Notes under the pieces: generated by a model
Seen by the model: only the letters and a program-made list of their open reading frames with translations
Databases searched by the model: none
Told to the model about the DNA's origin: nothing
Shown here: in pieces, positions 23,124 to 40,339 of the stretch
Layout of the letters: each line of letters begins with the position of its first letter
How positions within the stretch are numbered: position 1 is the stretch's first letter
Program-made: the position numbers and the translations under genes
NCBI RefSeq assembly: GCF_029504655.1
Contig: NZ_JAQFIL010000001.1
Location: 5,461,001 to 5,525,000, forward strand
Length of the DNA stretch: 64,000 nt
DNA from: Catalinimonas alkaloidigena
GTDB taxonomy: Bacteria; Bacteroidota; Bacteroidia; Cytophagales; Cyclobacteriaceae
Direction of reading: 5' to 3'

Positions 23124-24623
23124 TTATTCAAATCCCAAAGTACCGGAACGATAAAATTTTAGGAGTTTAATACCAAAAAAGTATTCGTATTTGACGCGTG
23201 TTAAGTCCGAAGTGGCTTGCTCAAGCAGCCTTTTTGTTTGTATGAGATCCAGTGCACTGATCCTTCCCGCACGGAAGCTTGTTTTAGCCTTTGTATATAC
23301 TTCTGTCAGTGAGCCTACCCGGCGCTGAGCTGCTGCATGGCTATCAGCAGCCGCCTTCGTTTTAAGATAGGCGAGCTCTATCGCTTGTCTGACTTCCTGC
23401 CTTAGCTGCATCGCATTGAGCCGGGCCTGATCCAGCCTGATGGAGGCATAGGAAGTCCTGGTCTTGGTCAGGGTGTTATTAAAAATAGGAATGCTCAGGT
23501 TGATGCTTATGTATCGCCTCAGGTTAAAGTCAAGCTGATTGATGTAATTGTTATCAGTATACTTAGCAGGGATTTCTGTTTCGGTGTATACCGGTATTTT
23601 TGTACCTTCTGTCAGGCCAGGTAGGTCAGCAGGAGACAGTACGAAACTGCCCGTTGGAATGATACGGCTCACATTGGCTATACCGGCCACGGGAATTTGC
23701 TCAGGCGCTATACTTGAGTACTGAGAATACAAACCTGCCCTCAAGGATAAATACGGGAAAAAGCCCGCTTTGGAAATTGAGATATCGTACTGAGCACTAC
23801 GTAGCAGCATATCAGCGCTTAGGATCGCTGCCTGCTGTTCCAGTGCTGAGAGGTATACCTCTGCTGTAGAAAAAAGAGTTTCTGCTTTATCAGGGATTAC
23901 CTTCTCCGGTGCTTCAATAGCAATAGACTGGTTGGCAGGTAGCTGCAAAATCTGCTTAAGGTGTAGCTGAGATATGGCGAGCTCACGCTTTGTTTCAATG
24001 ACAGACTGTTGATCCTGAAATAGTTGTGCCTCTAACTGGGTTTCATCAGTGGGGACCAAGCTGCCAGCTCGTACTAGTTTTCTGGCACTGTTAAGCTGAG
24101 ACTGTGTTGCCTGCCACTGTGTTTCTTTTAACGCGACTATCTCCTGGGCAAAAAGCACCTGCATATAAGCCTGAATTACCTCCAGCGTAATTTCCTGTTC
24201 AACTGCCTGCAAATCGTACTGACTAATACGCAGATACAGTTTATTTTTTCTGACCGTATTGATTTTTTTGAAGCCATCAAAAAGTGCTACTTCTGCGCTG
24301 ATGCTCATGTTTTGTTGGCGCACAGGCCGGTCTACATATTCATTGGTAAACTGGTTGATGGTACGCCCAACGCTATAGCTCATCCCTGTATTGGCATTTA
24401 CGGTAGGTAAAAGGTCCATGTAAGCGTGTTTTAGTGCTACCTTTTCTGAGCTGATGTTGAGTCGTTGGTGTCTGAGATTGAGATTTTGCTTCAGGGCATG
24501 AGCGATACAGTCATCCAGACTAAGGCTCAAACTACGCTTATCAGCGGTGGGCGCCTGCGCCTGTGTTTGTAAGCTGACGAACAGGCAGAAGCAAATGAGT
24601 AATTTTAAGATCGTAGAATTCAT
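23124..24623 (-). CDS. TolC-family outer-membrane channel (last gene of lanthipeptide cluster)
   Basis: A 499-residue protein with a signal peptide (ends TQAQA, residue ~23) and the two long coiled-coil repeats of TolC-type outer-membrane efflux proteins. Typical sequences are LDDCIAHALKQNLNLRHQRL near the N-terminus and KAKTSFRAGRISALDLIQTK near the C-terminus. It lies ~70 bp after the stand-alone SpaB_C gene on the same strand. Together with the HlyD-type adaptor and the C39 ABC exporter it would complete a tripartite path from cytosol to outside, as needed for a peptide made in a Gram-negative cell. A general efflux role cannot be excluded. Confidence 0.88.
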   Translation of the reverse strand: MNSTILKLLICFCLFVSLQTQAQAPTADKRSLSLSLDDCIAHALKQNLNLRHQRLNISSEKVALKHAYMDLLPTVNANTGMSYSVGRTINQFTNEYVDRPVRQQNMSISAEVALFDGFKKINTVRKNKLYLRISQYDLQAVEQEITLEVIQAYMQVLFAQEIVALKETQWQATQSQLNSARKLVRAGSLVPTDETQLEAQLFQDQQSVIETKRELAISQLHLKQILQLPANQSIAIEAPEKVIPDKAETLFSTAEVYLSALEQQAAILSADMLLRSAQYDISISKAGFFPYLSLRAGLYSQYSSIAPEQIPVAGIANVSRIIPTGSFVLSPADLPGLTEGTKIPVYTETEIPAKYTDNNYINQLDFNLRRYISINLSIPIFNNTLTKTRTSYASIRLDQARLNAMQLRQEVRQAIELAYLKTKAAADSHAAAQRRVGSLTEVYTKAKTSFRAGRISALDLIQTKRLLEQATSDLTRVKYEYFFGIKLLKFYRSGTLGFE

Positions 24624-24692: not shown

Positions 24693-25742
24693 TCAGGCAT
24701 GTGTGTTTGCCATGGGGCGTTCATGCATGTTAAGACTGGATAGTGCTTTCTGAATCACAAAGGCGATATAGGCTTCATCTCTGTTTAGTACCCCCAAGCG
24801 GTTATTTGTCATATGTACCAGGCTGCCTAATATATTCCAAAGCGTAGCCTCTTTTGGGTTTGACGCTTTAAGAAGATTTTTGTGCGGTGGAATGAGCTTA
24901 GCTTGTGCTTGCGCATCTTTTATCCTGCGGCGGAAATTACGCATCTCACTGACCCATAGGTTAAGCCAAGCCTGCTTAAAGGTTGAAGAAGTCTGTAAAC
25001 CTTGCCAGAGACTGGCACAAACGGATACAATATGCTGTTCCTGTTGCTCATAAGCTGAGGAAAAGCAATGCATTACCTTTTGCTCCATCGCATATCTTTC
25101 TTCAGAAGAATAGTCCTTATCAGAAGCATAAGCCATAGAAAACCAGCTGCGACCCAGATAAGAAAAGAAACGTATCATTTCTGCGGGCGACATATGCAGT
25201 TCGTGAGCAAAGCTCAGGTGCATTTGTATGGCTACTCCCAGAGCACATGCCGCATGCCAGCCAGGCTTTTGGCTCATTGCCTCCAATACCACATGAGAAG
25301 AAGCCTCAAACTGTTTTTCCGCGATAGACAAACCATATGTACCTCCGTACCTTCGGGTTTCGGGGATATAATCAATAGTTTGTACGGAGTTATTTGGATA
25401 TAGCTTTTGGGATCCCCGGGCTAGATGTACCTGATCTAAAGCCGAGCGGCAAGAAGGATAAGCGGTAGCAAACTGCCTGAAACGCTGCCTTATGTAAGGA
25501 GCTACATAGCTTTCCAGTGTTTTGGCTTCCCCTTTGACCCTTAGCCTAATATGTGGCCCATGCTCCCAGTACCTGATAAAGAAGTACTGACTGATGTGTT
25601 GCTTTTGATAAAGCGCTTCACAAACGGGCTTAACTAGCTGGAGGAGTAGAGGCTCCCAGGGCTCATTATAAAACATATGAAGTGATAACCACCTTTCCAT
25701 ACCTATTGAGTTTTTTGATTGAACTATTATGAATGGTACCAC
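24693..25742 (-). CDS. Thiopeptide-type bacteriocin biosynthesis protein (SpaB_C/LanB elimination domain)
   Basis: A 349-residue stand-alone homologue of the C-terminal domain of class I lantibiotic dehydratases. In the known mechanism this domain removes glutamate from glutamylated Ser/Thr to give dehydroalanine or dehydrobutyrine. Visible family features are WLSLHMFYNEPWEPLLLQLV at the start, FFIRYWEHGPHIRLRV, and the terminal NNRLGVLNRDEAYIAFVIQK. The start may be 25690 (MERWLSL) rather than 25742, because the longer form overlaps the LanB gene by 16 bp. It follows the LanB N-terminal protein, so the two together make a split LanB. It is shorter than full LanB (~1000 aa) as expected. Confidence 0.88.
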   Translation of the reverse strand: MVPFIIVQSKNSIGMERWLSLHMFYNEPWEPLLLQLVKPVCEALYQKQHISQYFFIRYWEHGPHIRLRVKGEAKTLESYVAPYIRQRFRQFATAYPSCRSALDQVHLARGSQKLYPNNSVQTIDYIPETRRYGGTYGLSIAEKQFEASSHVVLEAMSQKPGWHAACALGVAIQMHLSFAHELHMSPAEMIRFFSYLGRSWFSMAYASDKDYSSEERYAMEQKVMHCFSSAYEQQEQHIVSVCASLWQGLQTSSTFKQAWLNLWVSEMRNFRRRIKDAQAQAKLIPPHKNLLKASNPKEATLWNILGSLVHMTNNRLGVLNRDEAYIAFVIQKALSSLNMHERPMANTHA

Positions 25743-28501
25743 TGTAGCAGAAATTCTGTCACATATTTCTGCTCACCGATCCTGAGCATTTGGTCAGGCC
25801 TGGGGTACATCTCTTCTATGATCATGTGCTTTTTGACTCTCCCTATTGCTTTCTGAAAAAGGTTGATCAGCAAAGGGTTTCTGAAGTCTATGTATTGAGG
25901 TTTATAATCATCATTGGCAAATGCGGCTGCATCCTGATTGTTGGCTAGCGGGCTGATATCACTCACTTTCACAAACACTTCTTCCGGTAGCGATAATGAT
26001 TGCTGCCACTGTCGTATTTTGCGATAATACTGCCAATCGGTTTCCTGCCCCTTCCTGTGCGGAAGTAGTTCCTGCGGTATTAACCAGCTTTTTCTTCTAA
26101 TGATAATGTTGTCTTCATACATAATCCTGGGGCTTAGCCTGACATAAGGGTAGATCGCATCCGACGGTATATTTAAGCGGTCAACGACCTGCTTTAAGGG
26201 AGAGAGCATAATGGTATCACTATCGGAGAATTGACTCAACAGCTTGAAAAGCTCCGAGCGAAAGAAGTTAGCCTGAAAGCCCATATCAAAAGGAAGCACT
26301 TTCTTATTGCTTTTTTGGTGCCGGAGCTCCAAACATGCATGCTCCTGATGATAACAAACTTCAAGCTCTCCTAGCGGGATTTGCTGATCAGATGCCAGGC
26401 TATTATGGCTTCCGGGAGCGCTGATTTCATAAGGCATCAGGCTGGGGTGAATATTGGCGTTAAAATATGAACCATCACAATTTTCGGCCAGCAGTTCATC
26501 ACTAGTAGCAGTATTTTCATTCCAACGTTTGGTGTCCTGATGCACCTGATCGGGAAAAATATGCATATACCTGCTCATAAATTTCCCATAGCCGGTAAGG
26601 TAGTTATTGAGCACACCTTTGAGTTCGGTTTTACCTTCAGCATTGGTCTCCTTAAACAGCTGAATAAAAGCCGCATTTGATGCTGGTTTTTCTGTAGCTT
26701 CAAAGCCTATAGTCTGGTTAATTTCTTCCAGCAGCTTGCCATCTAAACGTACATGCTTTTTTGTGTCATCCCGATCTCTCAACCTGATAAACAATTCCTG
26801 CCGCCACCTTTTGGTGAGCAGGTGCCTTCTTCTCAATTGCTCAGGCAACTGCTGTAGCGTAGCTTGTTTGTGCTTCGGATCAGATTCTAAAGTTTTTACT
26901 TCGCGGTAATAATCTTCGTAAAAGTTCAGTAAGTTGATGCGGGCTTTTTCATCGTATTTATTCAGGAAAAACTCCTGCATCTTTTGCTTCTCCAGTACTT
27001 CTATGTCAAACAGCCTAAGCTGATCCAGCAACTGACTGAGCTTTTGGGTCAGTGTGTGAAGGGCAGTATGATCTATGCTGATCTGAACATGCTTCCGGGT
27101 GTCCTCATAAAAGATGTTTTCTGCCCGGAAAGGAAAGTCTTCTGTAGGCAACTGTTTTTCCTGCAGGTCGCCCGGAGCTGCTTGCCTGGTCTTTTGCAGG
27201 GGTGAAGATAGACTATGCGCTGAACTTGCACCCGCCCCTATGGCCACCGGCTCAGCAAAGTCAGTCTCTTGCAGACTACTACAAATGCTTTGGTAGATTT
27301 GCAGGGTACTTTCCTGAATAGTCTTTCTATCAGTAGTACTGGCGGTGTTAGCGTATTTATCCGCATTATACCGCATCTGCCTCAGTTGAGTGAAGAGCGG
27401 TATTAACCCATGCTGATGAGCCAGGATGGGCTGTAGTTTTTCAATCAGCTTTTTGTCCCAATAAGGGTCTGTACCGGAAATGCCCAGGTGAAATTCCAGA
27501 AATCCCAACTGTATTATTTTAAAAAGGTAGGCTTTGATTTCATCTTCACCGGCATTCACATGCTGTTGCAGGTAGCTACATAAGCTTAGGGGGGTGATAG
27601 CAGCCGATGTATGAGATTGCAAATACTGATGGATACATGTAAGTACCTGGTTCTGCTGAAGATATTGAAATACATCTATCTGATTTTTATTGATCAGAAA
27701 GTTGTACTGCTTTTCTTTCAATGAAATAGTAGGGTTCAGGCGCAGGGTCAGATGCTGAGCGAGTGGCTCGTTGGCAAAAATAAGCTCCTTCAAATATTTG
27801 AAAAGATAGTTGTTGAAACGAATATGTGAGCTGAAAACAGCATCTGTTTTATTACAGAACACTCCTTTGATCAGCGCTTGCTCGGCACAGGCTTGCGCTA
27901 TTGAAAGCTGGGTAAACGTACTGAAAGGGGATGTTTTGGTACAGGTACGTGTCAGGTACTTGAGCAAGCTCAGTTCTGCTTTAAGTGCTTTCTTACCCAG
28001 CTTCCCCTGCTTTTGAGCTATGTATTTTTCCACGTTTATCAGCAATGATTTACTGGAGAGTAGTAGTCCATGTTGTAAAGTGCTGTCAGTAGCCAGTGAC
28101 TGCATCGCTGTTCTTAGCTTTTTTAGTGCTTTTGTATATTGCTCCTCCCCTTCCCGCTCAATTTTATCAATGGCGCTATGCGTAGATATGTATCGCTCCA
28201 GCATAGTATAGGTAGCCTGGGGTAGTAATGTCAGGCTGTGCTGTAGCACCTTATTTTTTACAGAACGGTTATTAAACACGTCTCTTCGCAGGTTAAGGAG
28301 AAAGTTTTGTGCGGCAGGATCGTCAGTGCGACCAATTAACGAATACAGATGATCACTCAACTCCTGCTTCAATTTCGCAGCGACGCTTTCCAACGCTATG
28401 ACTTTCTTAGCAATATCCGGAAGCTTATCAGTCTGCATCTGCTCAAGACATTCGTATGGCTTTCCGCCTATTCGGGCGAGTATGTGAGGGAAAATCTCCA
28501 T
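25727..28501 (-). CDS. Lantibiotic dehydratase, glutamylation-domain protein (LanB N-terminal type)
   Basis: About 924 residues from the preferred start at 28501 (MEIFPHILARIGGKPYE); an upstream ATG at 28549 adds 16 residues. It matches the N-terminal part of class I lantibiotic dehydratases, which use glutamyl-tRNA to glutamylate Ser/Thr of a precursor peptide. Typical parts are KTSPFSTFTQ, the C-terminal DVHRL-like region RKSWLIPQELL and the segment YPYVRLSPRIMYEDNIIIRRKSW. The elimination domain is missing from this polypeptide and is supplied by the next gene, and perhaps by the two nucleotidyltransferase fusions. No signal peptide, so it acts in the cytosol. Confidence 0.88.
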   Translation of the reverse strand: MEIFPHILARIGGKPYECLEQMQTDKLPDIAKKVIALESVAAKLKQELSDHLYSLIGRTDDPAAQNFLLNLRRDVFNNRSVKNKVLQHSLTLLPQATYTMLERYISTHSAIDKIEREGEEQYTKALKKLRTAMQSLATDSTLQHGLLLSSKSLLINVEKYIAQKQGKLGKKALKAELSLLKYLTRTCTKTSPFSTFTQLSIAQACAEQALIKGVFCNKTDAVFSSHIRFNNYLFKYLKELIFANEPLAQHLTLRLNPTISLKEKQYNFLINKNQIDVFQYLQQNQVLTCIHQYLQSHTSAAITPLSLCSYLQQHVNAGEDEIKAYLFKIIQLGFLEFHLGISGTDPYWDKKLIEKLQPILAHQHGLIPLFTQLRQMRYNADKYANTASTTDRKTIQESTLQIYQSICSSLQETDFAEPVAIGAGASSAHSLSSPLQKTRQAAPGDLQEKQLPTEDFPFRAENIFYEDTRKHVQISIDHTALHTLTQKLSQLLDQLRLFDIEVLEKQKMQEFFLNKYDEKARINLLNFYEDYYREVKTLESDPKHKQATLQQLPEQLRRRHLLTKRWRQELFIRLRDRDDTKKHVRLDGKLLEEINQTIGFEATEKPASNAAFIQLFKETNAEGKTELKGVLNNYLTGYGKFMSRYMHIFPDQVHQDTKRWNENTATSDELLAENCDGSYFNANIHPSLMPYEISAPGSHNSLASDQQIPLGELEVCYHQEHACLELRHQKSNKKVLPFDMGFQANFFRSELFKLLSQFSDSDTIMLSPLKQVVDRLNIPSDAIYPYVRLSPRIMYEDNIIIRRKSWLIPQELLPHRKGQETDWQYYRKIRQWQQSLSLPEEVFVKVSDISPLANNQDAAAFANDDYKPQYIDFRNPLLINLFQKAIGRVKKHMIIEEMYPRPDQMLRIGEQKYVTEFLLQWYHS

Positions 28502-28593: not shown

Positions 28594-30357
28594 CTATAGC
28601 TGAACCTGCTCTTCCTGCAGCTTAAGGCTCAGATGTTGCGCGCAAGCCTGCAACAGAAACATGAGGTATCTTTCATTTTCGTGCAATACACCCAGCCGGT
28701 TATTCGTAGCATGAATGATTTCTTTATAAAAGAACCATAAGGGGTATCGCTCCAGTATCTTCACTTCACTTGATTCATCCTGAATGGGATCGGGCAGAAA
28801 CAGTTTTTCTTCGGTATGGAAGAGGGTGATTTTCTCCCTGCTCATTTTCAGTTCACCAAGGTAAGTTGCTAAGGCTTCTTCCAAGTTACGTTGCCCTTCC
28901 GTTTCGGATTTCTCCCACAGGCTCCCCAGAAAGCCAAGCATTTGCTCTTGTTGCTGCTCAAACTTATCCTCAAACTTCTGGTACAGTTTATCCTCCACTT
29001 CCTGCTTTAATAAGGGCATAGGGCTGACCTTATCGTTGAAGATAAAAGGACCCGGTATAGTCGAGAACTGATAAGCTCCCCAATCTTTCCAGTAGTTTTC
29101 ACAGAATAAGTTGATTTCCTGCAGACTCAGCCCAAGGGTGTGCAATACCAGCCAGTTAATTTTTATTACCTCGCCCAGCTTTTCATTGTAGTTAATTCCT
29201 GGCTTTTGAGAGATCAGGTCAAGCACAAATTTTGATGAGGAATGAAACTGCTCCTCTAAAAATTTTAACCCTTCTGACCCCATGTATTTCATCAGCTCTA
29301 CTTCAAACTCATAGTACTGAAATGAATTATTGGGGAAAAGCTGAAACTTCTTGGGAAGGCGCTTGTACAGATCGGGAGTAACCCTCAGCGAAGGGTTCAT
29401 GGATAGGTAGCTACCAAAAGTATTTTCTATATAGGGAAGAATATGTTCCTCAAAAATAGTTTTGTCTGTCACCAGGTAAAGGCTGATATGAGCACCATTC
29501 TTGTAGTTGCGCGTGAAAAAGACATTTTCTGCCCAGCCCATCTCGCTGAGGTTTTCAATGGATGGCTTGATCAATTCAATAAGCATTTCTTCCTGCGGTT
29601 CGGCATAGTACATGTCTACCATGAACCACTTTTTCACCTTATTATATTGCGGAGGTATCCCTGCCTCATAGGCTGCTGCTCTGTCATCAAGCTGCAATAG
29701 TACATTTTTCGTGAGGGTGATGACTTTATCTTTTCGCTGGTGCTGACAGAAATCGTCTATGGCTTTTTTGAGCTGCTCTCCCAGCTGCTTATCGTACTCC
29801 TCTACAGCCCTGAACTGCCACTTGCCCTGCCCCTTATTGGTCCACTGTCCATTGATGATCAGCATGACTTTGGTAAGAAAATAAAATAAGTTTGACAGGA
29901 TAAAATAGCTTTCATGATAGTCGTCATTATCTACAAAATCTTCCAGCCGGTTATTGATAATGTAGTGATAAAGCGCTTTTTCATAAGGGGTATAGGGAAG
30001 AGGCCCCTGATCGTAAATTTCACCTGCTTCAGTTTGAAGGCTGGCAATCACCTGATCCGTATCTTTAATGATCACTCCTTTTACGATCAGGTCCAGGAAT
30101 GCCTTATTTCTTCTTTTTCTGTCGTACGCCATGTTATCTCTGGACTGGCTGATCCGATGAACCATCGCTTCTATTTTCTGCCCTTCAAAATGGTATAGCT
30201 TACGGTAATGTGAATGAATGTCTTCATAGAATACCAGTAAATCCAGGTCGGAGTGTGGCTTCATTTCTCCAGTCACCGCACTGCCGCTCAATATGGCTCC
30301 CTGAGCATCCGGAAATTGCTGATCTATAAACCTTCTGGCAATTATTGTATAATCCAT
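28594..30357 (-). CDS. Nucleotidyltransferase-SpaB_C fusion protein 2
   Basis: About 587 residues from the chosen start at 30357 (MDYTIIARRF), which aligns with its paralogue and follows that gene's stop by 11 bp; longer forms reach back to 30420. Residues ~20-65 carry the DNA polymerase-beta-type nucleotidyltransferase motif: Gly25-Ser26, Asp37 and Asp39 in HSDLDLLVFY, and Glu63 in KIEAMVH as the likely third acid. A helical region (~100-235) follows, like that of antibiotic nucleotidyltransferases. From ~243 (KWFMVDMYY) to the end it is a SpaB_C-like domain with NVFFTRNYKNGAHISLYL and NNRLGVLHENERYLMFLL. I know of no described function for this fusion. A role in modifying the precursor peptide is inferred from the cluster. 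Confidence 0.85.
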   Translation of the reverse strand: MDYTIIARRFIDQQFPDAQGAILSGSAVTGEMKPHSDLDLLVFYEDIHSHYRKLYHFEGQKIEAMVHRISQSRDNMAYDRKRRNKAFLDLIVKGVIIKDTDQVIASLQTEAGEIYDQGPLPYTPYEKALYHYIINNRLEDFVDNDDYHESYFILSNLFYFLTKVMLIINGQWTNKGQGKWQFRAVEEYDKQLGEQLKKAIDDFCQHQRKDKVITLTKNVLLQLDDRAAAYEAGIPPQYNKVKKWFMVDMYYAEPQEEMLIELIKPSIENLSEMGWAENVFFTRNYKNGAHISLYLVTDKTIFEEHILPYIENTFGSYLSMNPSLRVTPDLYKRLPKKFQLFPNNSFQYYEFEVELMKYMGSEGLKFLEEQFHSSSKFVLDLISQKPGINYNEKLGEVIKINWLVLHTLGLSLQEINLFCENYWKDWGAYQFSTIPGPFIFNDKVSPMPLLKQEVEDKLYQKFEDKFEQQQEQMLGFLGSLWEKSETEGQRNLEEALATYLGELKMSREKITLFHTEEKLFLPDPIQDESSEVKILERYPLWFFYKEIIHATNNRLGVLHENERYLMFLLQACAQHLSLKLQEEQVQL

Positions 30358-30368
30358 GATTTTCATAT

Positions 30369-32066
30369 TTAGGTTGAAATAGTATTTGCGCATTGGTGAA
30401 TGATGTAGAACAGATAGCACTCATCAGCATACCTGAGGCCGAGCTGATTGTTGAGCATGTGGGTGATATGCTTATAATTCATAAAGCTGTACTGGGTGAA
30501 CTTATCCATCTCAATATGCCAGTTGGGACTTACCTCCGATAGCAGGAGCTGCTCCTGCTGATTTAACGCTGAAATGTTTTGCGTAAAGCCATTCATTTTA
30601 TGATGCCATTCAGACTCTAGCTCTCCGGTAAATTCATGCTCCTGCAATTTCTGCCATATGCTCTGAATTGTAGCTTTGGTATTAGGCGCAGTGTGCTGAT
30701 AATTAGCCTCCATTTTTTCGATAAAGTTTTTCCCTGTCTGTGCGTTGACTGTAGCACCGCAGGCATAGGGAATCAGCTCCTGTAGCTGAAACCAGGCAGA
30801 AACCTTCAGCTTATCTGTATCAATAGCAAGGGCATGAAAACTAAGCAGTGCCAGCTTCAGCGCTGCTCCCATGGCTTTGCGCTCTGACCAGCCTGAGTCC
30901 TGCTGAATGAGCCTGCCTATCCGCGATGAGGAAAAATCAAACAAATCTTCCATCAGTTTGGTGGCCGCGTTTCCACCGAACAATGCGGGTAAGATCTCTT
31001 TACGCTGGTATTGCAGGCTATTATCAGGAAACCACTGCTGCTCCTTAGGAAGATCCGCTACCCATGCGGGCGTTACTCTTACTGAAGGTGCCTTTTTGAA
31101 ATAAGCCTCAAAACACTGATTCGCGAAGGGTTTGATAAGTGTATCAAATGTTTCTTCTTCAGTGATCAGAAAGAGGCTGAGGTGCGGGCCGTTTTCAGTA
31201 TAACGGTTAAAGAAGCATCGCTCCACCCAGTTTTTTTGCCGCAGAAACTGAACAAAGGGGGGCACGGCTTCTGTGATCAGCCTGTTCTGGTCGCTTGCGT
31301 AGTAAATTTCAATTGAAAACCATTTCCTGCTCTGGTTCAACTCGGGAGGTACGCCATTTTTAAACCCACTCTTGAGGCGTCCGCCACTATAGCTAAGCTG
31401 CTCATGGACAAGCGTAGCAATGGCTTCTTTATCGGCTTGCTGATAAAACCCTTCCATGGCTGATATCAATGTGTGATAAATATCTTCATCGTATTGCTGT
31501 AGTGCTTTGATTTGCCATTTTCCGCTACCTTTATACGGCCATTTGCCGTGGGTGATCAGGATAAAGTCTAACAGATTAGTGAGCAGGTCGTTCAGGATAA
31601 AGCAGCTTATCGCGAAGCTTTCTGAGGTCATAAAATCATCCAGGCGATTGGTGATCACATACCTTTGCTTTTGAAGCTCACTATCCGATAATGGAGCGGG
31701 GCCCGCTTGGTATATTTTTTTTACTTCGCATCTTATCCTGGCTAAATGCCCCTCGGTATCTTTCAGTATTTTGCTTTTCAGACATAATTCTTTCAGGGCG
31801 TTTTTCCTTTTTTCTCCTTCAGCTACTATTTCATTCAAAAAAGTATGTGTAGGATATACCATAGCCTCAATTTCGTAACCTGCATAGGTGAACACCTCCC
31901 GATAACTGGACTGAATGCGGTCATAAAAGATCAGCAGGTCTATATCTGAGCGCTCATTAAAACTACCGTTTACCGCACTACCACATATGAGTAGCCCATC
32001 ACTATCCGGAAACCTGGAATTTGTAGCGTTCAGTGCTATCTGGTCTATATTTTTTGTCTGATACAT
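30369..32066 (-). CDS. Nucleotidyltransferase-SpaB_C fusion protein 1
   Basis: About 565 residues from the chosen start at 32066 (MYQTKNIDQIALN). The open frame extends to 32192, but that extension crosses a strong hairpin and abuts the precursor stop, so it is probably not coding. The nucleotidyltransferase core is intact: Gly29-Ser30, Asp41 and Asp43 in RSDIDLLIFY, and Glu67 in EIEAMVYP. A helical middle part follows, and a SpaB_C-like domain begins at ~248 (KWFSIEIYY), with CFFNRYTENGPHLSLFL and the terminal NNQLGLRYADECYLFYI. It is a paralogue of the next gene with the same domain order. Keeping the catalytic acids in both copies suggests that both are active. It is the first enzyme gene after the precursor. 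Confidence 0.85.
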   Translation of the reverse strand: MYQTKNIDQIALNATNSRFPDSDGLLICGSAVNGSFNERSDIDLLIFYDRIQSSYREVFTYAGYEIEAMVYPTHTFLNEIVAEGEKRKNALKELCLKSKILKDTEGHLARIRCEVKKIYQAGPAPLSDSELQKQRYVITNRLDDFMTSESFAISCFILNDLLTNLLDFILITHGKWPYKGSGKWQIKALQQYDEDIYHTLISAMEGFYQQADKEAIATLVHEQLSYSGGRLKSGFKNGVPPELNQSRKWFSIEIYYASDQNRLITEAVPPFVQFLRQKNWVERCFFNRYTENGPHLSLFLITEEETFDTLIKPFANQCFEAYFKKAPSVRVTPAWVADLPKEQQWFPDNSLQYQRKEILPALFGGNAATKLMEDLFDFSSSRIGRLIQQDSGWSERKAMGAALKLALLSFHALAIDTDKLKVSAWFQLQELIPYACGATVNAQTGKNFIEKMEANYQHTAPNTKATIQSIWQKLQEHEFTGELESEWHHKMNGFTQNISALNQQEQLLLSEVSPNWHIEMDKFTQYSFMNYKHITHMLNNQLGLRYADECYLFYIIHQCANTIST

Positions 32067-32524: not shown

Positions 32525-33661
32525 TTAGTTGTCGTAGAGGTACACCACTTTCCCAAAGCGCTCCTGCTGATTGAAGGTCCTGTCAAAAAACGCTCTGATT
32601 TCTGTGCCTTTATACACACTGTCTATCACTACATGGGTTTTAATACTTTGGTAGTCATCTATGGCCCGAACCAGATCCTCATTACAACCCAGGCAATTGC
32701 CCACAATGCTTATATTATTCGTAAGTATGGTGTTCATCACGCTTTGGTAGTTATTCTGTTCATCGGAAAAAGGTTGGCCAATGTCTTCCAGATACTGATC
32801 ATACAAGCCACAGGTGACATAACTACCTCCTGTTTTAATCAGAGGAACCACCTTCTCAAGGTACAGATCATAAAAGGGGTCAATCACATAATCAAACCCT
32901 TTCAGCATATGGATAGCTTCATGAAGACGCTGGCTTCCAATACTATTATGCTTTCTATCTACTATAAAAACATCACTGGCACCCAGAGCAGTTAACTGAT
33001 CCGCGAAGCAGGCGGAAGTGGTGAGCGCATACACATTGGCTCCCTTTGATTTCAGGGTATTTAAGGCAAATAATGAAGTATTGGATGTAGCGGCAGTAAG
33101 CAACACATTGTTTCCTTCCTGAATCTTGAGCCGCCTGACGATACTGCCGATCGTTTGTCCGCCAATTGTGAACCCGGCGGCTACTTCATCCGACATGTTT
33201 TCAGGTATTCTGGCCAGCTTGCCATAATGGAATACTTCGTACTCTTTGGAAGCATTGTTGGTAGGCAGACCGGGAGTGGCACCCTCAAATCCTGAATCAG
33301 GATATGCTCCGTTGCCAATGACCCTGTCGCCTATTGCTAAACCTTTCACCGAAGTGCCGGCAGCCACTACTTCGCCTACGAACTCTGAGCCTATAGGAAA
33401 GTAGTAGTGCTTGTCCTGCCGGCTGTTACAGTACTTCAGCGACTTAAAGATGAGCGACTTGTCACGGTAGTTGAGCGAAAAGCCTTTTTTCTTCACCAGC
33501 ACCTTCTGACTGTTAGCCGGGTCCTGACCGTCAAATATGATGTTTTCTGTCTCCAGTAGACCGATAGTAACTTCTACGCCATCCATTATCAGGGAAGTCA
33601 CCAGCTGTTTATCTGATACTGCCTCTTTTAAATTGGGACTACATATAGCGACCTGCTTCAT
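32525..33661 (-). CDS. Zinc-less MDR-family reductase (enoyl reductase/quinone oxidoreductase-like)
   Basis: About 378 residues from the chosen start at 33661 (MKQVAICSPN); a longer frame to 33757 would run into the HlyD gene. It is a medium-chain dehydrogenase/reductase. FSLNYRDKSLI and PIGSEFVGEVVAAGTSVKGLAIGDRV replace the Cys and GHE of zinc alcohol dehydrogenases, so it resembles quinone oxidoreductases and enoyl reductase domains that reduce C=C bonds with NAD(P)H. The nucleotide-binding fold follows (NNVLLTAATSNTSLFALNTL). Placed between exporter and precursor, it may reduce dehydroamino acids in the peptide, as LanJ-type enzymes do; this is inference. An unrelated small-molecule role is the alternative. 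Confidence 0.8.
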   Translation of the reverse strand: MKQVAICSPNLKEAVSDKQLVTSLIMDGVEVTIGLLETENIIFDGQDPANSQKVLVKKKGFSLNYRDKSLIFKSLKYCNSRQDKHYYFPIGSEFVGEVVAAGTSVKGLAIGDRVIGNGAYPDSGFEGATPGLPTNNASKEYEVFHYGKLARIPENMSDEVAAGFTIGGQTIGSIVRRLKIQEGNNVLLTAATSNTSLFALNTLKSKGANVYALTTSACFADQLTALGASDVFIVDRKHNSIGSQRLHEAIHMLKGFDYVIDPFYDLYLEKVVPLIKTGGSYVTCGLYDQYLEDIGQPFSDEQNNYQSVMNTILTNNISIVGNCLGCNEDLVRAIDDYQSIKTHVVIDSVYKGTEIRAFFDRTFNQQERFGKVVYLYDN

Positions 33662-33665
33662 AATT

Positions 33666-35000
33666 TTATTGGTTAAAAATGTAGACGATATTTTCAAAAA
33701 TCCGCTCCAGTAGATTACGTTCGTTGGTGACGACCTCGCCCATACCCACCATGTCATGCTTAAATTCCAGACTTTTGTTAAAGTTTGTTTTGAGTCCGTT
33801 AGGTAGACTTATGGTTATCAGGTAATAATTTTCTTTGCCCAGCAGGGTTACTTCCTCTTTGGTAAGAGGGGAGATGCTCTCCACTACGCCATGCACCGTA
33901 CCAAACTCTTTATAAGGATAGTCTTCCAGGTTAATCATCACTCTCTGCCCCAGTTCTACCTTTCCCGCGCCATGGGTTGGCATTTCGGCATGACCCGTCA
34001 GCCCGGCATTATCCGGTATGATGCTGAACACTTCCTCTCCGCTTTTCACAAACTCATTGTCTTTCCAGAAATCCAAAAATTCAAGCGTACCATCTATGGG
34101 TGCTTTAAGCACATAAGTCTGTTCCCAGTCGGTGATGGCAGACATCAGATTGTTGTAGTGCTCCCATAAAGCCAACTCCAGCCTGATGAGGGTCTCAGTA
34201 TCATCAAACTGTATTTCGTGGGTTTGATTGCTGAGTTCCAGAATTTGAGACTCTACCCTGATCATATCGGCTCTGAAGTTTTCAAAGTCTTCTGTTTTGT
34301 TCAAAAAAATAATTTTAGAGTCTTCATAGTCTTCCTCAGAAATTACCTTTTCCATAAACAGCTGTGAGTCTCTTTCCCATTTTTTCTTGAAAATAGACAG
34401 CTCTTCTTTTTTCACCCGTATGAGGGTTTCTTTCTTGTTTAGCAGCTTTTTGTAGTTACTGATCTGCTGATGAAGAAATGTCAACTGGCTGCCGTTGCGG
34501 TTTAGTTTATCCACCAGAATAATTTCCTGATAAGTTTTGAGGAAGTCGCTGAATAGAATCTGTAGGCTCCCCAGTGACAGGCTTTCAGGGAAAAAGTCCA
34601 GTCCAGCACTGTTGACTTCTTCATAATTGGCCTTGAAAGCAATGAGTTTTTCTCTAAGCGCAACGACATCCCGGGCATTGGCGGAATTTTCAATGACAGC
34701 GATGTACTGCCCCCTGCTGACCTTTTGACCGGGAGAAATCTGCTCTAACCTCAGATTACCGGGAGATTTGGCTACAATTTTCAAAGGCGGGTTGGTGGTG
34801 GTAATGCTTACTTCAGAGAGCACAACTTCCGGATACCTGATGAGCCAGGAAAAGGCAAACACCAGCAGAATGAGCATCAGTATTATGATCGTTCCCCACC
34901 TGATAAACCAATTGGGCATTCTGTCCATTACATCCTGAGTTTTTTCACTCCTCAGGCTGAGTTCACTGCTGTCTTGTAGTTGAGTTGCCATTACGCGCAC
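33666..35000 (-). CDS. HlyD-family periplasmic adaptor (bacteriocin exporter subunit)
   Basis: A 444-residue protein with one N-terminal membrane helix (IRWGTIIILMLILLVFAFSW) and the rest in the periplasm. It shows the split lipoyl-like region (KIVAKSPGNLRLEQISPGQKVSRGQYIAVIEN and later APIDGTLEFLDFWKDNEFVKSGEEVFSIIP) separated by a long coiled-coil hairpin (~110-260). This is the membrane-fusion part of a type I secretion system. Its start overlaps the ABC transporter stop by 10 bp, and it ends 4 bp before the MDR gene, so co-expression is sure. It should bridge the ABC exporter to the TolC protein at the far end of the cluster. Confidence 0.92.
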   Translation of the reverse strand: MRVMATQLQDSSELSLRSEKTQDVMDRMPNWFIRWGTIIILMLILLVFAFSWLIRYPEVVLSEVSITTTNPPLKIVAKSPGNLRLEQISPGQKVSRGQYIAVIENSANARDVVALREKLIAFKANYEEVNSAGLDFFPESLSLGSLQILFSDFLKTYQEIILVDKLNRNGSQLTFLHQQISNYKKLLNKKETLIRVKKEELSIFKKKWERDSQLFMEKVISEEDYEDSKIIFLNKTEDFENFRADMIRVESQILELSNQTHEIQFDDTETLIRLELALWEHYNNLMSAITDWEQTYVLKAPIDGTLEFLDFWKDNEFVKSGEEVFSIIPDNAGLTGHAEMPTHGAGKVELGQRVMINLEDYPYKEFGTVHGVVESISPLTKEEVTLLGKENYYLITISLPNGLKTNFNKSLEFKHDMVGMGEVVTNERNLLERIFENIVYIFNQ

Positions 35001-37183
35001 ATATTTAGTTGGTTTCTTACCAGGTTGAAGTATATGCCTTTCCTCTGGATGAGGCTATGGTGGTTGCCTACCTCCACTATTCTTCCCTGATTGAGTACCA
35101 CGATCTGATCCGCGTTTTGTACAGTGCTCAGCCTATGGGCCACGATAAGTACCGTTTTACCTTCAAAAACAGAAGACAGGTTATGCATAATGCTCCTTTC
35201 GTTATATGCGTCAAGCGCATTGGTAGCTTCATCCAGAAACAGGTATTCCGGATCTTTGTAGAGGGCACGAGCTATCAGGATTCTCTGCTTCTGTCCCTGA
35301 CTGAGACCTCTCCCCCCCTCACCCATCCTGGTATAAAATCCCAGGGGCAAAGCATCAATAAACTCCCGGGCATTGGCAATATTCACGCAGGCGTTCAGGC
35401 GATCTTTGTCAATACGCTCACTGTCCAGCACAATATTATTAAGGATGGTATCATTAAATATTTTGCTGTCCTGTAACACAATGCCACACTTTCGCCTCAA
35501 AAGCCTCAGACTGATGTTTTCAATATTAGCATTGCCTATGAAGATATTGCCGCCATGGTTGGGCTCATAAAAGCGCAGCAGGAGTTTCAGCAAGGTAGTC
35601 TTACCACTGCCGCTGCCCCCCACGATGGCCGTAACTTTACCTTCGGGAATTTCAAGTCTGATGTTATTCAGGATGTTAGGCTCGTTTCTCTGATACCGAA
35701 AGGATACATTCTGTAACTTCAGGCTTTTTTCTTCCGGGAAAAAATTATTGTTAAGGCTGCTTTCATTCTCCTCATCATCCATTTCGTTGATTTCATTGAG
35801 CCGGCGGAAACTGATCCCTGCCAGCTGGGCTGATTTGATAAAGCTGATCAATTGAACGATTGGCCCGTTTAGCTGCCCTACAATGTACTGGGCAGACATC
35901 ATCATCCCCAGGGTCATCTCGCCATGTATGACTGATTTGACCGCATAAAAGGTGATAAGCATATTTTTGAGGGTATTGATCAGTTGCGCGCCAATATCCT
36001 GGGCCTGGTTTAACTTGAGGGTGCGTATGCTGAGCTTATACAAATCGGTCTGTATACCTTCCCAGGTCCACCTTTTCTGCTTCTCACAGTTGTTTACCTT
36101 GATATCCGGCATAGCCTGCAAGGTTTCTATCCACTGGCTCTGGTTTCTGGACTGCATCTCAAAGTGCATATAGTCCAGCTTGCGCCTCACCCTCAGGAAA
36201 AGCACAATCCACACTGCGTACAGTATGCTGCCCACGATAAAGATGACAAACAGAATGGTATTGTAGTACAGCAGGATAGCCCCGAACACCACTACATTGA
36301 GCATCGCAAAAACCAGGGTGAGCGAAGAAGACATGATGAAATTTTGTATCCGGTCGTGGTCTTTGGCCCTCTGCAGTATATCCCCGATCATTTTTTTCTC
36401 AAAAAAGGATACGGGCAGCTTCATGAGTTTGATGATGTAATCCGATAACAAGGCGATATTAACCCGCGCCGAGATGTGGAGTAACAACCAGTTGCGTATG
36501 TACTCCACCACAGTGGAACTGATGGTAAGCACGATAGTGGCGATCAGTAGTATGTTGACAAACTCCATATCCTGATTGCCTATGCCTACATCTACAATGG
36601 CCTGGGTAATGAAAGGAAAAAGCAGTTGTAGTAGTGTGGCTACCACCATACCGGCAAAAAGCTGAAGCAGAAAGCTTTTGTACTTGATGATATAGGAATA
36701 AAAATAGCGAAGCGTTCTTCCACTTTTCCTTTTGCTTTCATTCTGCTCATAAAAATGAGGGGTGCTTTCCAGGGCAAGCACTACCCCTTCATCCGTATCG
36801 GGATGTGTAGTGTCAAGCCAGCTCTCCACAAACTCTTTCTCTGTGTACTGCAGCAGCCCCCTTGCCGGGTCTGATGCATAGACCTTCCCCTTTCTGAATT
36901 TGTAGACGACAATGAAGTGGGTGTGATTCCAGTGCACGATGCAGGGCAGAGGAAGCTTGTCCCTGAGGTTGCAAAAGCTGGTTTTCAGGGCCAGGCTTTT
37001 AAAGCCTATGCTTTCCGCTGCCTGACTGATATCCAGAATGGAGACGCCCTCTCTGCCACCGTCACAGCGGTCACGCAGGAGTTGTAATGAAAAATATTTG
37101 CCATAGTACTTTGAGATAATCTGCAGACAAGTAGGCCCGCAATCCATCAAATCAAGCTGTTTGTAATGAGGAAATTTTTTCAT
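34991..37183 (-). CDS. C39 peptidase-containing ABC exporter (LanT/PCAT type)
   Basis: A 730-residue protein that cleaves double-glycine leaders and exports the product. The C39 peptidase domain has Cys15 in MDCGPTC, His89 in HTHFIVVY and Asp105 in ASDPARG, all catalytic residues in place. Membrane helices occupy ~165-450. The ATPase domain has Walker A at 522-529 (GGSGSGKT), signature LSQGQ at 627-631 and Walker B YLFLDEA near 647-653. It is the first gene of the operon. Its predicted cleavage site Gly30-Gly31 is present in the precursor 2.6 kb downstream. A palindrome that may be an operator lies 30 bp upstream of the start. Confidence 0.94.
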   Translation of the reverse strand: MKKFPHYKQLDLMDCGPTCLQIISKYYGKYFSLQLLRDRCDGGREGVSILDISQAAESIGFKSLALKTSFCNLRDKLPLPCIVHWNHTHFIVVYKFRKGKVYASDPARGLLQYTEKEFVESWLDTTHPDTDEGVVLALESTPHFYEQNESKRKSGRTLRYFYSYIIKYKSFLLQLFAGMVVATLLQLLFPFITQAIVDVGIGNQDMEFVNILLIATIVLTISSTVVEYIRNWLLLHISARVNIALLSDYIIKLMKLPVSFFEKKMIGDILQRAKDHDRIQNFIMSSSLTLVFAMLNVVVFGAILLYYNTILFVIFIVGSILYAVWIVLFLRVRRKLDYMHFEMQSRNQSQWIETLQAMPDIKVNNCEKQKRWTWEGIQTDLYKLSIRTLKLNQAQDIGAQLINTLKNMLITFYAVKSVIHGEMTLGMMMSAQYIVGQLNGPIVQLISFIKSAQLAGISFRRLNEINEMDDEENESSLNNNFFPEEKSLKLQNVSFRYQRNEPNILNNIRLEIPEGKVTAIVGGSGSGKTTLLKLLLRFYEPNHGGNIFIGNANIENISLRLLRRKCGIVLQDSKIFNDTILNNIVLDSERIDKDRLNACVNIANAREFIDALPLGFYTRMGEGGRGLSQGQKQRILIARALYKDPEYLFLDEATNALDAYNERSIMHNLSSVFEGKTVLIVAHRLSTVQNADQIVVLNQGRIVEVGNHHSLIQRKGIYFNLVRNQLNMCA

Positions 37184-37752: not shown

Positions 37753-38514
37753 TCATCCCACTAAATCTGCGCTTTCAACGCCATCAGATAAATTACCATT
37801 TACATTAATTCCATGTCCCCAAAACAAATCTCCATCATCAAACCAGCTTTCAAAAGCCCCATCATCCCAGACACTTATGGAAGTTATCTTGATTCTTTTT
37901 TCAAACTCACTTTCAGTGAATGGCTCATCGTGTTCTTCTAACCAACTTTCATTCTTTAGAGGCAATAGCTCTTCAATGATGATTTGAATAAATTTCTTAT
38001 TCCAATCTCGCTGCTTTTCAAATAAAGAAATGGCTACTTCTTCTGAGCGGATGGGCGGCGTATCTTCATCCATCAACATCAATTCTATTTCATGATCACA
38101 CCATATCTGGGTTGAAACAAACCAGTTCGGACCTCTTTCTAAAGTGAATACCCCTAATCGCTCACTATGAAAGATGATGGGTTGCTTCCTCTTATTTCTT
38201 ATAAGCTCAAACCTTTTGTCCTCTATATTAACTTGCTCAATGGATGAAAGTAGAATGCGCTGCTGACCATAATGCTCTATCTGTACTCCCTTAATGGTAA
38301 TGATATCCAGTTGATTGATATTGCTCACATCATATTGAAAAGAAGGAATTTCTTTAGTAACGTATATATCTTCTTCAATAATCTCTGAATCATTCTTAGC
38401 ATAGGCAAAAAAGCTAAACCCCAATGATACAGCATCGTCTGTACCCACTTTTGCGACACCATCTTCATCTACAATGCCTGTGAATGTATCAAGTTCTTCT
38501 TTCTTAAATATGCT
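37753..38514 (-). CDS. DUF2262-like hypothetical protein
   Basis: About 253 residues from the preferred start at 38514 (MSIFKKEELD); an upstream start at 38535 adds 7. The C-terminal ~130 residues match my memory of the DUF2262 family, with SVWDDGAFESWFDDGDLFWGHGINVNGNLSDG as the clearest part (aromatic and acidic). No signal peptide or membrane segment. DUF2262 proteins have no firm function that I know of; some sit near toxin systems as candidate immunity proteins. It is one of three same-strand small genes separated by a repeat, so it may have arrived as a cassette. Its terminal stem-loop is described separately. Confidence 0.7.
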   Translation of the reverse strand, partial: SIFKKEELDTFTGIVDEDGVAKVGTDDAVSLGFSFFAYAKNDSEIIEEDIYVTKEIPSFQYDVSNINQLDIITIKGVQIEHYGQQRILLSSIEQVNIEDKRFELIRNKRKQPIIFHSERLGVFTLERGPNWFVSTQIWCDHEIELMLMDEDTPPIRSEEVAISLFEKQRDWNKKFIQIIIEELLPLKNESWLEEHDEPFTESEFEKRIKITSISVWDDGAFESWFDDGDLFWGHGINVNGNLSDGVESADLVG

Positions 38515-38572
38515 CATAAGTTGCCGTAGCCTCATTAAAATATCTTATGCCTGTGATCAAAACGGTACTAAT

Positions 38573-38604
38573 GCTTACCACATTTACGCTGCGCTAAACT
38601 TGCG
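38573..38604. repeat. Cassette-boundary-like repeat, copy A
   Basis: The core GCTTACCACA...GCTGCGCTAAACTTGCG is nearly identical to copy B (39048-39080). It lies between two small minus-strand genes. On the minus strand it ends in GGTAAGC, one base from the integron consensus GTTRRRY. Confidence 0.55.
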
Positions 38605-38625
38605 GGAGAGTGAGGAGTAGTTTAA

Positions 38626-38928
38626 TTAAGTGTTATCAACAAATACCCCAATTTGACAATTAAAGTTTGATGGACTTGTTGGTGAATATATATTTGTGCC
38701 ATAATTATTGTCCACTTCAAATAATTGTTTTTCCATTTTAAAATTTATTTTTCTCACAACATATTCTTCACCTTCATATTCTAAAGTATTCCCAATTTCT
38801 ATAAATTGAGATTCGTCATATGTATGCTTTTTAATATTAAGCAAGTCAAACGATTCTCGATTGTAGAAGTATGCAATTGTTGCCCCTTGAACATGTTGAA
38901 GTAAAATTCTCACTTGTAATTGTTCCAT
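38626..38928 (-). CDS. Small hypothetical protein (100 aa)
   Basis: One hundred residues from the preferred ATG at 38928 (MEQLQVRILLQHV); the frame is open further upstream to 39033 but that part is Cys/Ile-rich and looks non-coding. The sequence is soluble, with beta-type pattern (NTLEYEGEEYVVRKINF), no signal peptide and no recognisable motif. It is flanked on both sides by the ~32-bp repeat (copies A and B), so it resembles a mobile cassette gene. The composition is more AT-rich than that of the lanthipeptide cluster. No function can be given. Confidence 0.6.
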   Translation of the reverse strand: MEQLQVRILLQHVQGATIAYFYNRESFDLLNIKKHTYDESQFIEIGNTLEYEGEEYVVRKINFKMEKQLFEVDNNYGTNIYSPTSPSNFNCQIGVFVDNT

Positions 38929-39047
38929 ACAATATATTATTGTTAAAATTTTCAATTGTTTGTAAAGAAAAGGACAGCATATCCTATTGCAGATAACGGA
39001 TTTGTATGAACTACTATCCTGGTGAAACATCATTAATGAGCTTCTTT

Positions 39048-39080
39048 GCTTACCACAAGTTACACTGCGCTAAACTTGCG
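39048..39080. repeat. Cassette-boundary-like repeat, copy B
   Basis: The core GCTTACCACAAGTT...GCTAAACTTGCG contains an inverted pair CAAGTT/AACTTG, so it can fold. It matches copy A in 26 or more positions. On the minus strand, GTTGCCTAAAA follows the preceding gene's stop ~40 bp before this repeat and resembles the other half (RYYYAAC) of an attC site. Confidence 0.55.
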
Positions 39081-39128
39081 ATAGAGGTATAGAGGGGATA
39101 TGACATATATACAATTTTAGGCAACGTT

Positions 39129-39869
39129 TTATTTTTTCTTTTGCTCTCTTAATATTCGGTTTATCAGTTGAATCTTATCAAGATTTTCCATCACAGAATT
39201 GGAGTCAGTCAAATCAATTGATTCTTTGCCTTCTATTTTAAAATTAGGTATTAATGAATAGCTCATTATTTCATAATCATCGTTACTTAAGTCTAATTCT
39301 TTTAGTTCAATTGGCATATAATCAATTCTACTCACATTCTCATTTTCGTCAAAACTTACCGCTCCTATTAATCGTTCCTCTTCCGCAACTGCGCCATATT
39401 TGGTTAGATAACTTAATTTTAATATCAGAACTAAATTATCAAAAACGGTAATTGATGAATATTCAAACTCAGTCTCGTTAATATATTGAATTGTTCCAAA
39501 CATATAATCTCTATAGTTGCCAGCAATTCTTATTGTTTTATAATCACCTGGTGAGAGGATGACATATGCTTCTTTATTGTTCATGGGACTAATTCTTTTG
39601 AAGAAGCCTCCGCTAGTATCTTTTACTTCCAGATGTAACTCTGCATTCAACAACACTTCTGTTTGATTGCCTGTATTTTTAATTAAAAGTGGTATAACTA
39701 TTTCATCCTTTTTTAATTCAGGAGTCAGGGTGGTGTAGAATAAAGAATGTTTTATGTTAAAGAATTGAAAATAAAAACTAAATCCTGAAATTAATAATGC
39801 TATAATACTAATCAGTAAACTGGGTGTTCTAATGATTTTTGTTGCCTTTTTCCAATACTTACTGTTCAA
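39129..39869 (-). CDS. Hypothetical membrane-anchored protein
   Basis: A 246-residue protein with one N-terminal membrane helix (SLLISIIALLISGFSFYFQF, residues ~17-37) and a presumably extracytoplasmic, beta-rich remainder. VIPLLIKNTGNQTEVLLNAEL looks like an immunoglobulin-like strand pair. I do not recognise the family. It is the third same-strand gene in the repeat-bounded group; the repeat-like sequence at 39903-39933 lies 33 bp upstream of its start. The low GC content is similar to that of the two neighbours and suggests horizontal arrival. Confidence 0.65.
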   Translation of the reverse strand: MNSKYWKKATKIIRTPSLLISIIALLISGFSFYFQFFNIKHSLFYTTLTPELKKDEIVIPLLIKNTGNQTEVLLNAELHLEVKDTSGGFFKRISPMNNKEAYVILSPGDYKTIRIAGNYRDYMFGTIQYINETEFEYSSITVFDNLVLILKLSYLTKYGAVAEEERLIGAVSFDENENVSRIDYMPIELKELDLSNDDYEIMSYSLIPNFKIEGKESIDLTDSNSVMENLDKIQLINRILREQKKK

Positions 39870-39902
39870 TGCTTTTTATGATTAGTGTGTTTTTTTAATG
39901 TT

Positions 39903-39933
39903 GCTTAACAACAAGTCGCCGCAAATTTACGGC
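39903..39933. repeat. Cassette-boundary-like repeat, copy C (diverged)
   Basis: It starts GCTTAACAACAAGTCGCCGC and follows the same pattern as copies A and B but is more diverged. On the minus strand it ends GTTAAGC, which fits the integron core GTTRRRY exactly. It is 33 bp upstream of the third small gene. Confidence 0.4.
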
Positions 39934-40339
39934 TATCTACAATCTATCATCTTAAAAGTAATACTACAATTTAACTTTTATCAGTTTAACTATCAATAAA
40001 ACCTCTTTTTTGAGTATTTCCCAATAATAATTAGTAAATATTTTTTACTTACCTTGTGAAATCACACCTAATTTAAAGGCAATCTCCAATATATACCTAC
40101 TCAAAATCATCCTATGATTCTGGCACTAAGTGTTGATATTCAGTCCGTAAGGCTTAAGCTGTAGGTAAGGCTTACCATAAGGGTAATGCAGTGTTTTATT
40201 CATGTTTTTTATATTTTCCTCTGGAAACCATTCCTTTTCCTCTAAAGCTTACCTGCTGTGTTCGCTGCTGCTAACTTGGGTTGGCTGGCTTAAGCTTTCT
40301 AGGCGGGCTTTCCCTTACATTTCGCACTCAGGCAAAACT
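39934..40339. other. AT-rich intergenic region
   Basis: No gene or RNA was recognised. The stretch is low in GC to about 40120 and then changes abruptly to more balanced sequence leading into the 42-bp repeat array. Confidence 0.5.

Follow-up and report, generated by a model that had tools for sequence, protein, structure and literature searches.

Two paralogous nucleotidyltransferase-SpaB_C fusion proteins in a LanB-containing peptide cluster of Catalinimonas alkaloidigena

Two neighbouring genes of Catalinimonas alkaloidigena (Bacteroidota) raise the question of what a nucleotidyltransferase (NTase) does when it is joined to a SpaB_C fold within a cluster for a ribosomally synthesized and post-translationally modified peptide (RiPP). 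The genes are located in a 64,000 nt stretch (hereafter the window; GCF_029504655.1, NZ_JAQFIL010000001.1, positions 5,461,001-5,525,000, forward strand) of a 7.9 Mb genome which consists of three contigs and is 99.71% complete. An earlier note made from the letters of this DNA described their products as two paralogous fusions of an intact NTase with a lantibiotic-dehydratase elimination-type domain in a lanthipeptide-like cluster. Sequence comparison and structural models suggest, with a probability of about 0.5, that the proteins (fusion #1, P0001; fusion #2, P0009) are precursor-recruited NTases whose SpaB_C fold binds the peptide.

Architecture and active sites of the fusion proteins

The reading frames of both fusions were open from ATG to stop and the two proteins showed 30% identity across 574 aligned positions. 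The NTase and SpaB_C domains were above the Pfam cut-offs in both, barely so for the NTase of fusion #2 (21.7 vs 21 bits), and the SpaB_C half of fusion #1 started at about residue 241. A polymerase-beta/aminoglycoside nucleotidyltransferase (ANT)-type fold and a SpaB_C fold were both backed by the AlphaFold model and by structure comparison, in agreement with the two paralogous fusions of the earlier note and with the NTase fold for which it had asked a structure prediction. A chance or frame artefact was rejected since both domains passed the Pfam cut-offs in the two proteins and two further proteins, P0002 and P0005, showed the whole architecture.

In the NTase half, residues G25, S26, D37, D39 and E63 were kept in all four fusions and in the four aligned stand-alone relatives from plasmids, hence the GS, DxD and later E motif is intact as had been claimed. 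Residues 7-220 matched stand-alone NTases end to end (best 31.8%, E 2e-22), and the half was structurally akin to kanamycin NTase and LinB, which bears out the proposed likeness to antibiotic-modifying transferases. The named aminoglycoside NTase families were not reached, with at most 19.3 bits for fusion #1 against NCBIfam ANT cut-offs of at least 193 and no such match for fusion #2.

For the SpaB_C half, the reference was MadB, whose residues R822, R864 and H1005 are given as essential for elimination in PMC12241602; they were placed on the other SpaB_C proteins by alignment. Both arginines were replaced in all four fusions (R822 by Y, Y, H and F; R864 by K, K, K and L). Stand-alone copies kept the equivalent of R822 in 18/18 and of R864 in 17/18, and the stand-alone SpaB_C protein of the window kept the equivalents of all three residues. 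Judged by these residues, the fused SpaB_C domain is no ordinary glutamate eliminase because both essential arginines are lost in 4/4 fusions. The elimination-type assignment therefore stood for the fold and the active-site His and did not stand for the arginines, while the suggested division of labour among three SpaB_C copies agreed with an intact stand-alone copy beside two fusions lacking both arginines.

The model for the [4+2] enzymes TbtD/PbtD (NF045556) scored higher than the generic SpaB_C model in fusion #1 (49.2 vs 30.2 bits) and fusion #2 (73.5 vs 39.3 bits), with the reverse in the stand-alone copy (65.8 vs 100 bits). The NF045556 cut-off of 325 bits was missed by these two and by P0005 (30.4 bits) and P0002 (44.5 bits). 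The best structural matches of the fused SpaB_C half were TbtD and TsrL, tied with the MadB elimination domain (Z 22.4 vs 21.8 for MadB). In addition, the second Arg of the HxRxR motif was Tyr in TbtD, fusion #1 and P0002. Peptide binding by this fold is documented by the title of PDB 5wa4, which names leader peptide binding for TbtD, and by the inhibition values given for MroD in PMC9247985, where the half-maximal inhibitory concentration was 0.09 uM for the MroA1 precursor, 16 uM for the leader alone and 41 uM for the core.

The operon and the lack of a LanC match in the genome

The precursor, fusion #2, fusion #1, LanB and SpaB_C genes followed each other in this order on one strand with intergenic gaps of about 130 bases or less (Table 1). 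The precursor had a pinensin-type leader of 31 aa ending in GG and a 44-aa core with 8 Ser, 4 Thr and 2 Cys. The LanB glutamylation protein and the stand-alone SpaB_C copy reported earlier were both recovered by Pfam, as PF04738 and PF14028 proteins respectively. The split LanB had its best PDB match with 6ec7/6ec8 ('Lantibiotic dehydratase domain protein', E 1.5e-26), which we take to be the thiopeptide enzyme TbtB.

The best NCBIfam matches of the reductase were PRK13771 and acryloyl-CoA reductase, both below cut-off, and phmmer found no counterpart among the 24 other PF14028-type loci compared. LanJ enzymes reduce dehydroalanine (Dha) to D-Ala. By its operon position the reductase is a candidate LanJ-like enzyme for the Ser/Thr/Ala/Val-rich core.

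No match to LanC (PF05147) at E ≤ 1e-3 was found in the whole host genome, with a search control that matched in 1/14 genomes. A LanC homologue was present in 19 of the 24 related loci and absent from the stretch in L038, L041, L042, L044 and L060; these loci were 20 kb or less each, two of them supplied the LanC queries and two genomes were represented twice. Because the genome yielded no LanC match, the label 'lanthipeptide' is doubtful for the window cluster and an ordinary lanthipeptide is an unlikely product, which departs from the earlier description. Upstream of the operon, a low-G+C patch (38001-40000, 32%) was observed and the interval 37753-39869 (-) held three open reading frames, possibly a recent insertion.

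Table 1. Coordinates of the operon genes in the window and of two stand-alone NTases in other loci (positions of the named locus).
Feature	Position	Strand	Evidence
C39-peptidase ATP-binding cassette (ABC) exporter, predicted leader cleavage at GG and export	34991..37183	-	Pfam Peptidase_C39 E 5.4e-29, ABC_membrane, ABC_tran
HlyD-type periplasmic adaptor	33666..35000	-	Pfam HlyD_3 E 6e-14; NCBIfam type_I_hlyD E 1.7e-31, under cut-off
Medium-chain reductase/dehydrogenase	32525..33661 (putative start at 33661)	-	Pfam ADH_N 4.3e-9, ADH_zinc_N 1.4e-7
Precursor peptide, 75 aa	32193..32420	-	NCBIfam NF038180 37.4 bits, cut-off 24; sequence
Fusion #2 (P0009), NTase + SpaB_C-like, 565 aa	30369..32066	-	GS...DID ~31982-31938, third Glu ~31868-31866
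Fusion #1 (P0001), NTase + SpaB_C-like, 587 aa	28594..30357	-	GS...DLD ~30285-30241, third Glu ~30171-30169
Split LanB glutamylation protein, 924 aa	25727..28501 (putative start at 28501)	-	Pfam Lant_dehydr_N (PF04738) E 1.8e-31
Stand-alone SpaB_C protein	24693..25742	-	Pfam Lant_dehydr_C (PF14028) E 1.2e-43; elimination residues R, R, H all kept
TolC-type outer-membrane channel, likely export partner	23124..24623	-	Pfam OEP E 3.8e-44
Stand-alone ANT(4')-like NTases in LanB-SpaB_C-LanC clusters	L037:7768-8487, L085:9941-10648	+	Pinensin-type leaders present

Distribution and relatives

Each of the three protein searches covered about 8000 scored candidates, a number that was capped in two of them, and homologues may thus have been missed. 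Among the matches listed, the fusion was rare and occurred in the host genome (#1 and #2) and as P0002 and P0005 on short contigs of 8.4 and 2.0 kb respectively, read as metagenomic from their source tag. The search with fusion #2 returned only itself among the approximately 8000 candidates scored. The genome search for the domain pair proposed in the earlier note was answered in part: PF14028 was present in 49/290 genomes of the host's own family and 47/395 genomes of its class (samples overlap), and, going by open-frame length alone, only the host genome had it in frames as long as a fusion protein (607 and 608 aa). A full-length search of 295 family genomes gave NTase-side matches beyond the host genome in three, with frames of 546 aa (G013) and 480 aa (G019) and a weak match across stops (G020). 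The C-terminal part of the orphan protein of G013 matched the SpaB_C profile (hhalign 96.6%). An orphan NTase + SpaB_C-like protein was observed at L019:6817-8424 (-), where the 16 kb covered contained no RiPP genes and the neighbours included an RNA methyltransferase and a GWxTD protein.

A profile search of 395 phylum genomes matched 13, of which, beyond the host genome, only a Flavobacterium (G315) spanned both halves (query 10-316). Flavobacterium relatives of 530-534 aa were found in 3/199 genomes of the genus, and a genome-wide scan for sequence patterns gave 13 confirmed loci, five of which were such relatives. The other eight were Clostridia/Bacillota NTases (L071-L078), rejected as further fusions since seven (all except L074) held a stand-alone NTase of 108-270 aa; the neighbouring genes of these seven (L071-L073, L075-L078) had no visible RiPP link. 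A contig scan with two peptide patterns produced 181 pattern matches and zero confirmed relatives. A role in anti-phage defence was rejected as well, with weak PADLOC matches only (best E 3.9e-4, for P0004).

The Flavobacterium proteins aligned to the window fusions across 430 columns with the last hundred or so not reached (hhalign E 1.3e-22). By this alignment the architecture of NTase and SpaB_C is older than the window cluster, because the Flavobacterium proteins share it over 430 columns and stand beside a C39 exporter. Their C-terminal half resembled SpaB_C weakly (hhalign 57.6% to the stand-alone profile), one of the five proteins matched the stand-alone SpaB_C copy of the window (E 1.5e-4), and Pfam detected no SpaB_C there. 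Their structural model was poor, with a predicted local distance difference test (pLDDT) of 60.5 and a predicted template modelling score of 0.44, and Foldseek matched it to the NTase 3c18 (E 1.9e-5) and weakly to PbtD (E 5.8e-3). The column of the elimination His was Phe or Leu in the two Flavobacterium rows aligned. The neighbouring genes encoded a C39 exporter, HlyD, a TolC-type protein, an acetyltransferase and a Gly-rich protein whose conserved start was a leader-like stretch ending in GG (4/5) or GS (1/5), followed by a variable remainder. With LanB and LanC proteins as phmmer queries, no homologue of either was found in these stretches of 15-22 kb. The set of acetyltransferase, TolC-type, Gly-rich, NTase-degenerate SpaB_C, C39 exporter and HlyD genes was conserved in L066-L070 (e.g. 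L068:6612-15048), and its make-up is reminiscent of a polymorphic system for secreted proteins.

The SpaB_C domains of the four fusions grouped together (99/97) in a tree of 22 such domains. In an NTase tree of 10 rows, the Flavobacterium NTases did not split the fusion NTases when the four stand-alone rows were left out of the count, and the fork placing fusion #2 was unsettled. The simplest reading of these trees is a single fusion event followed by duplication, uncertain due to long branches.

Stand-alone NTases were also found in two LanB clusters. An ANT(4')-like NTase of 239 aa (G671) was located between LanC and a precursor with a pinensin-type leader in a cluster with LanB and SpaB_C. 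As a query against 79 genomes of its own family it retrieved one more (G1239), whose cluster likewise had LanB, SpaB_C and LanC, together with an exporter, a subtilase and three precursors, two of which exceeded the pinensin cut-off. NTases may have joined LanB clusters twice, because the G671 protein matched the fused NTase only across a 41-residue motif region (BLASTP E 0.009). The NTase as a frequent companion of pinensin-type clusters was rejected: in a scan of 24 PF14028 loci (L037-L060) and L036 with a single motif, which can miss NTases, it was judged real in L036 and L037 only and the matches in L046, L051, L054 and L060 were judged by eye to be chance.

Proposed role and comparison with known systems

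In the favoured mechanism, the SpaB_C-type half, incapable of the known glutamate elimination, would grip the precursor leader and/or the dehydrated core, comparable to the way stand-alone [4+2] enzymes bind their peptides. The ANT-type half would then use a nucleoside triphosphate (NTP) to attach a nucleotide monophosphate to the peptide or an intermediate, at a side chain or a terminus. Ordinary glutamylation would fall to the split LanB and elimination to the stand-alone SpaB_C protein with its intact residues, the reductase may convert some dehydroalanines to D-alanine and the C39 exporter would take off the leader. We infer that NTPs are used, that the peptide is the substrate and is bound through the SpaB_C half, and that the two paralogues serve two sites or two stages. 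This simple account fits the kept NTase residues, a SpaB_C fold that persists after loss of the elimination arginines, the intact eliminase encoded nearby and the relatives found in exporter clusters where no LanB was in reach.

Several points weigh against it. Among the LanB-cluster-type fusions, 4/4 retain the elimination-site His and one of four (P0005) retains the first Arg of HxRxR, a pattern as compatible with residual catalysis as with binding alone. In 5/5 Flavobacterium relatives Gln takes the place of the third carboxylate, so that some members of the family may be unable to catalyse transfer; the adjoining Flavobacterium gene products are large, Gly-rich and not RiPP-like, and a common peptide substrate is thus not obvious. 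Four stand-alone NTases inspected for their surroundings (L081-L084) had no annotated RiPP genes around them, in an incomplete gene table. Genomic surroundings are known for #1 and #2 of the four fusions, and the fusion model was built on a 4-row alignment with pLDDT below 50 at residues 227-241, 321-346, 426-450 and 523-535.

Self-protection was weighed as an explanation in which the fusions dock through SpaB_C and then nucleotidylate and silence the mature or premature peptide, as the aminoglycoside/lincosamide NTases do with their drugs or MntA with its toxin. The immunity role raised in the earlier note is conceivable but accounts poorly for the SpaB_C half; the placing of both genes between those for the precursor and LanB resembles biosynthesis more than immunity and an exported peptide would require removal of the adduct outside, which makes this explanation unlikely. 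The SpaB_C half could instead perform its own chemistry on dehydrated residues, a [4+2] aza-cycloaddition or a ring closure replacing LanC, with the NTase secondary. The preference for the TbtD/PbtD model, opposite in the stand-alone copy, the TbtD and TsrL structural matches, the shared Tyr and the genome without a LanC match speak for it, but all scores are far below the family cut-off, the Z score places the MadB elimination domain just as near and the Flavobacterium relatives have no LanB homologue in reach as a Dha supplier, so that we regard it as rather improbable.

The first possibility listed in the earlier note was activation before elimination, here considered as a bifunctional dehydratase whose NTase would nucleotidylate Ser/Thr and whose SpaB_C would eliminate the nucleotide to give Dha or dehydrobutyrine, a tRNA-independent dehydration beside the LanB route. 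The precursor core offers 12 Ser/Thr, and the two replaced arginines may normally serve the glutamyl group, in which case their replacement would suit another leaving group. However, the split LanB and the intact stand-alone eliminase of the same operon would already provide a normal dehydration route, and the Flavobacterium relatives lack both a LanB homologue in their stretches and, in two rows, the His. Activation before elimination consequently does not hold up as the main reading and is improbable, the His kept in the four fusions being in its favour. Finally, an NTase that regulates the pathway by acting on a non-peptide target (LanB or the tRNA-Glu it uses, or a signalling nucleotide) is suggested by weak matches to CCA-adding enzymes in the fold search (E 4e-3 to 2.5e-2). 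This is very improbable, as the NTase is joined to a peptide-processing fold and occurs in Flavobacterium with no LanB homologue in reach.

If the precursor is nucleotidylated by the recruited NTases, the fusions would be RiPP tailoring enzymes with peptide recruitment built in by a retired LanB domain, probably yielding a new kind of decorated peptide. The SpaB_C fold, known for elimination and [4+2] ring closure, would be reused in a third way as a recruiting module, and the Flavobacterium secretion clusters make the family testable outside lanthipeptides. The domain combination suggests an undescribed way of decorating ribosomal peptides.

Compared with known systems, the aminoglycoside and lincosamide NTases (kanamycin NTase, LinB) and the stand-alone relatives on Geobacillus, Cytobacillus and Streptomyces plasmids share the fold and motif residues, whereas the window NTases are joined to SpaB_C and placed in a RiPP operon. 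The glutamate elimination domains of NisB, MibB and MadB share the fold and the active-site His, and the fusions lack the equivalents of R822 and R864. The [4+2] pyridine synthases TbtD, PbtD, TsrL and MroD have the SpaB_C fold in common with the fusions, which differ by carrying an NTase and by scores far under the family cut-off. The Flavobacterium proteins are related across the aligned columns but differ in the Gln for the third Glu, the adjoining large Gly-rich secreted-type proteins and the lack of LanB and LanC homologues within their stretches. Pinensin-type class I lanthipeptide clusters with split LanB share the leader, split LanB, stand-alone SpaB_C, C39 exporter and HlyD, and the window cluster differs in two added NTase-SpaB_C fusions, an added reductase, a core with only 2 Cys and a genome with no LanC match.

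NTase genes in RiPP clusters are known: a knock-out links PsmN of pseudomycoidin to hexose addition on the phosphorylated lasso peptide (PMC9266682), NTases are accessory genes of daptide clusters (PMC10036551) and LanC occurs together with an NTase in Kordia (PMC11118758). No SpaB_C fusion is mentioned in the passages that describe them. The NTase-SpaB_C fusion was not described in the open-licence PubMed Central papers found by full-text search, and within that literature the earlier note was borne out in knowing of no RiPP pathway with a fusion of this kind. Overall, single NTases in RiPP clusters were known already, and what is new is the fusion of two known fold types, the changed active site and the setting with no LanC.

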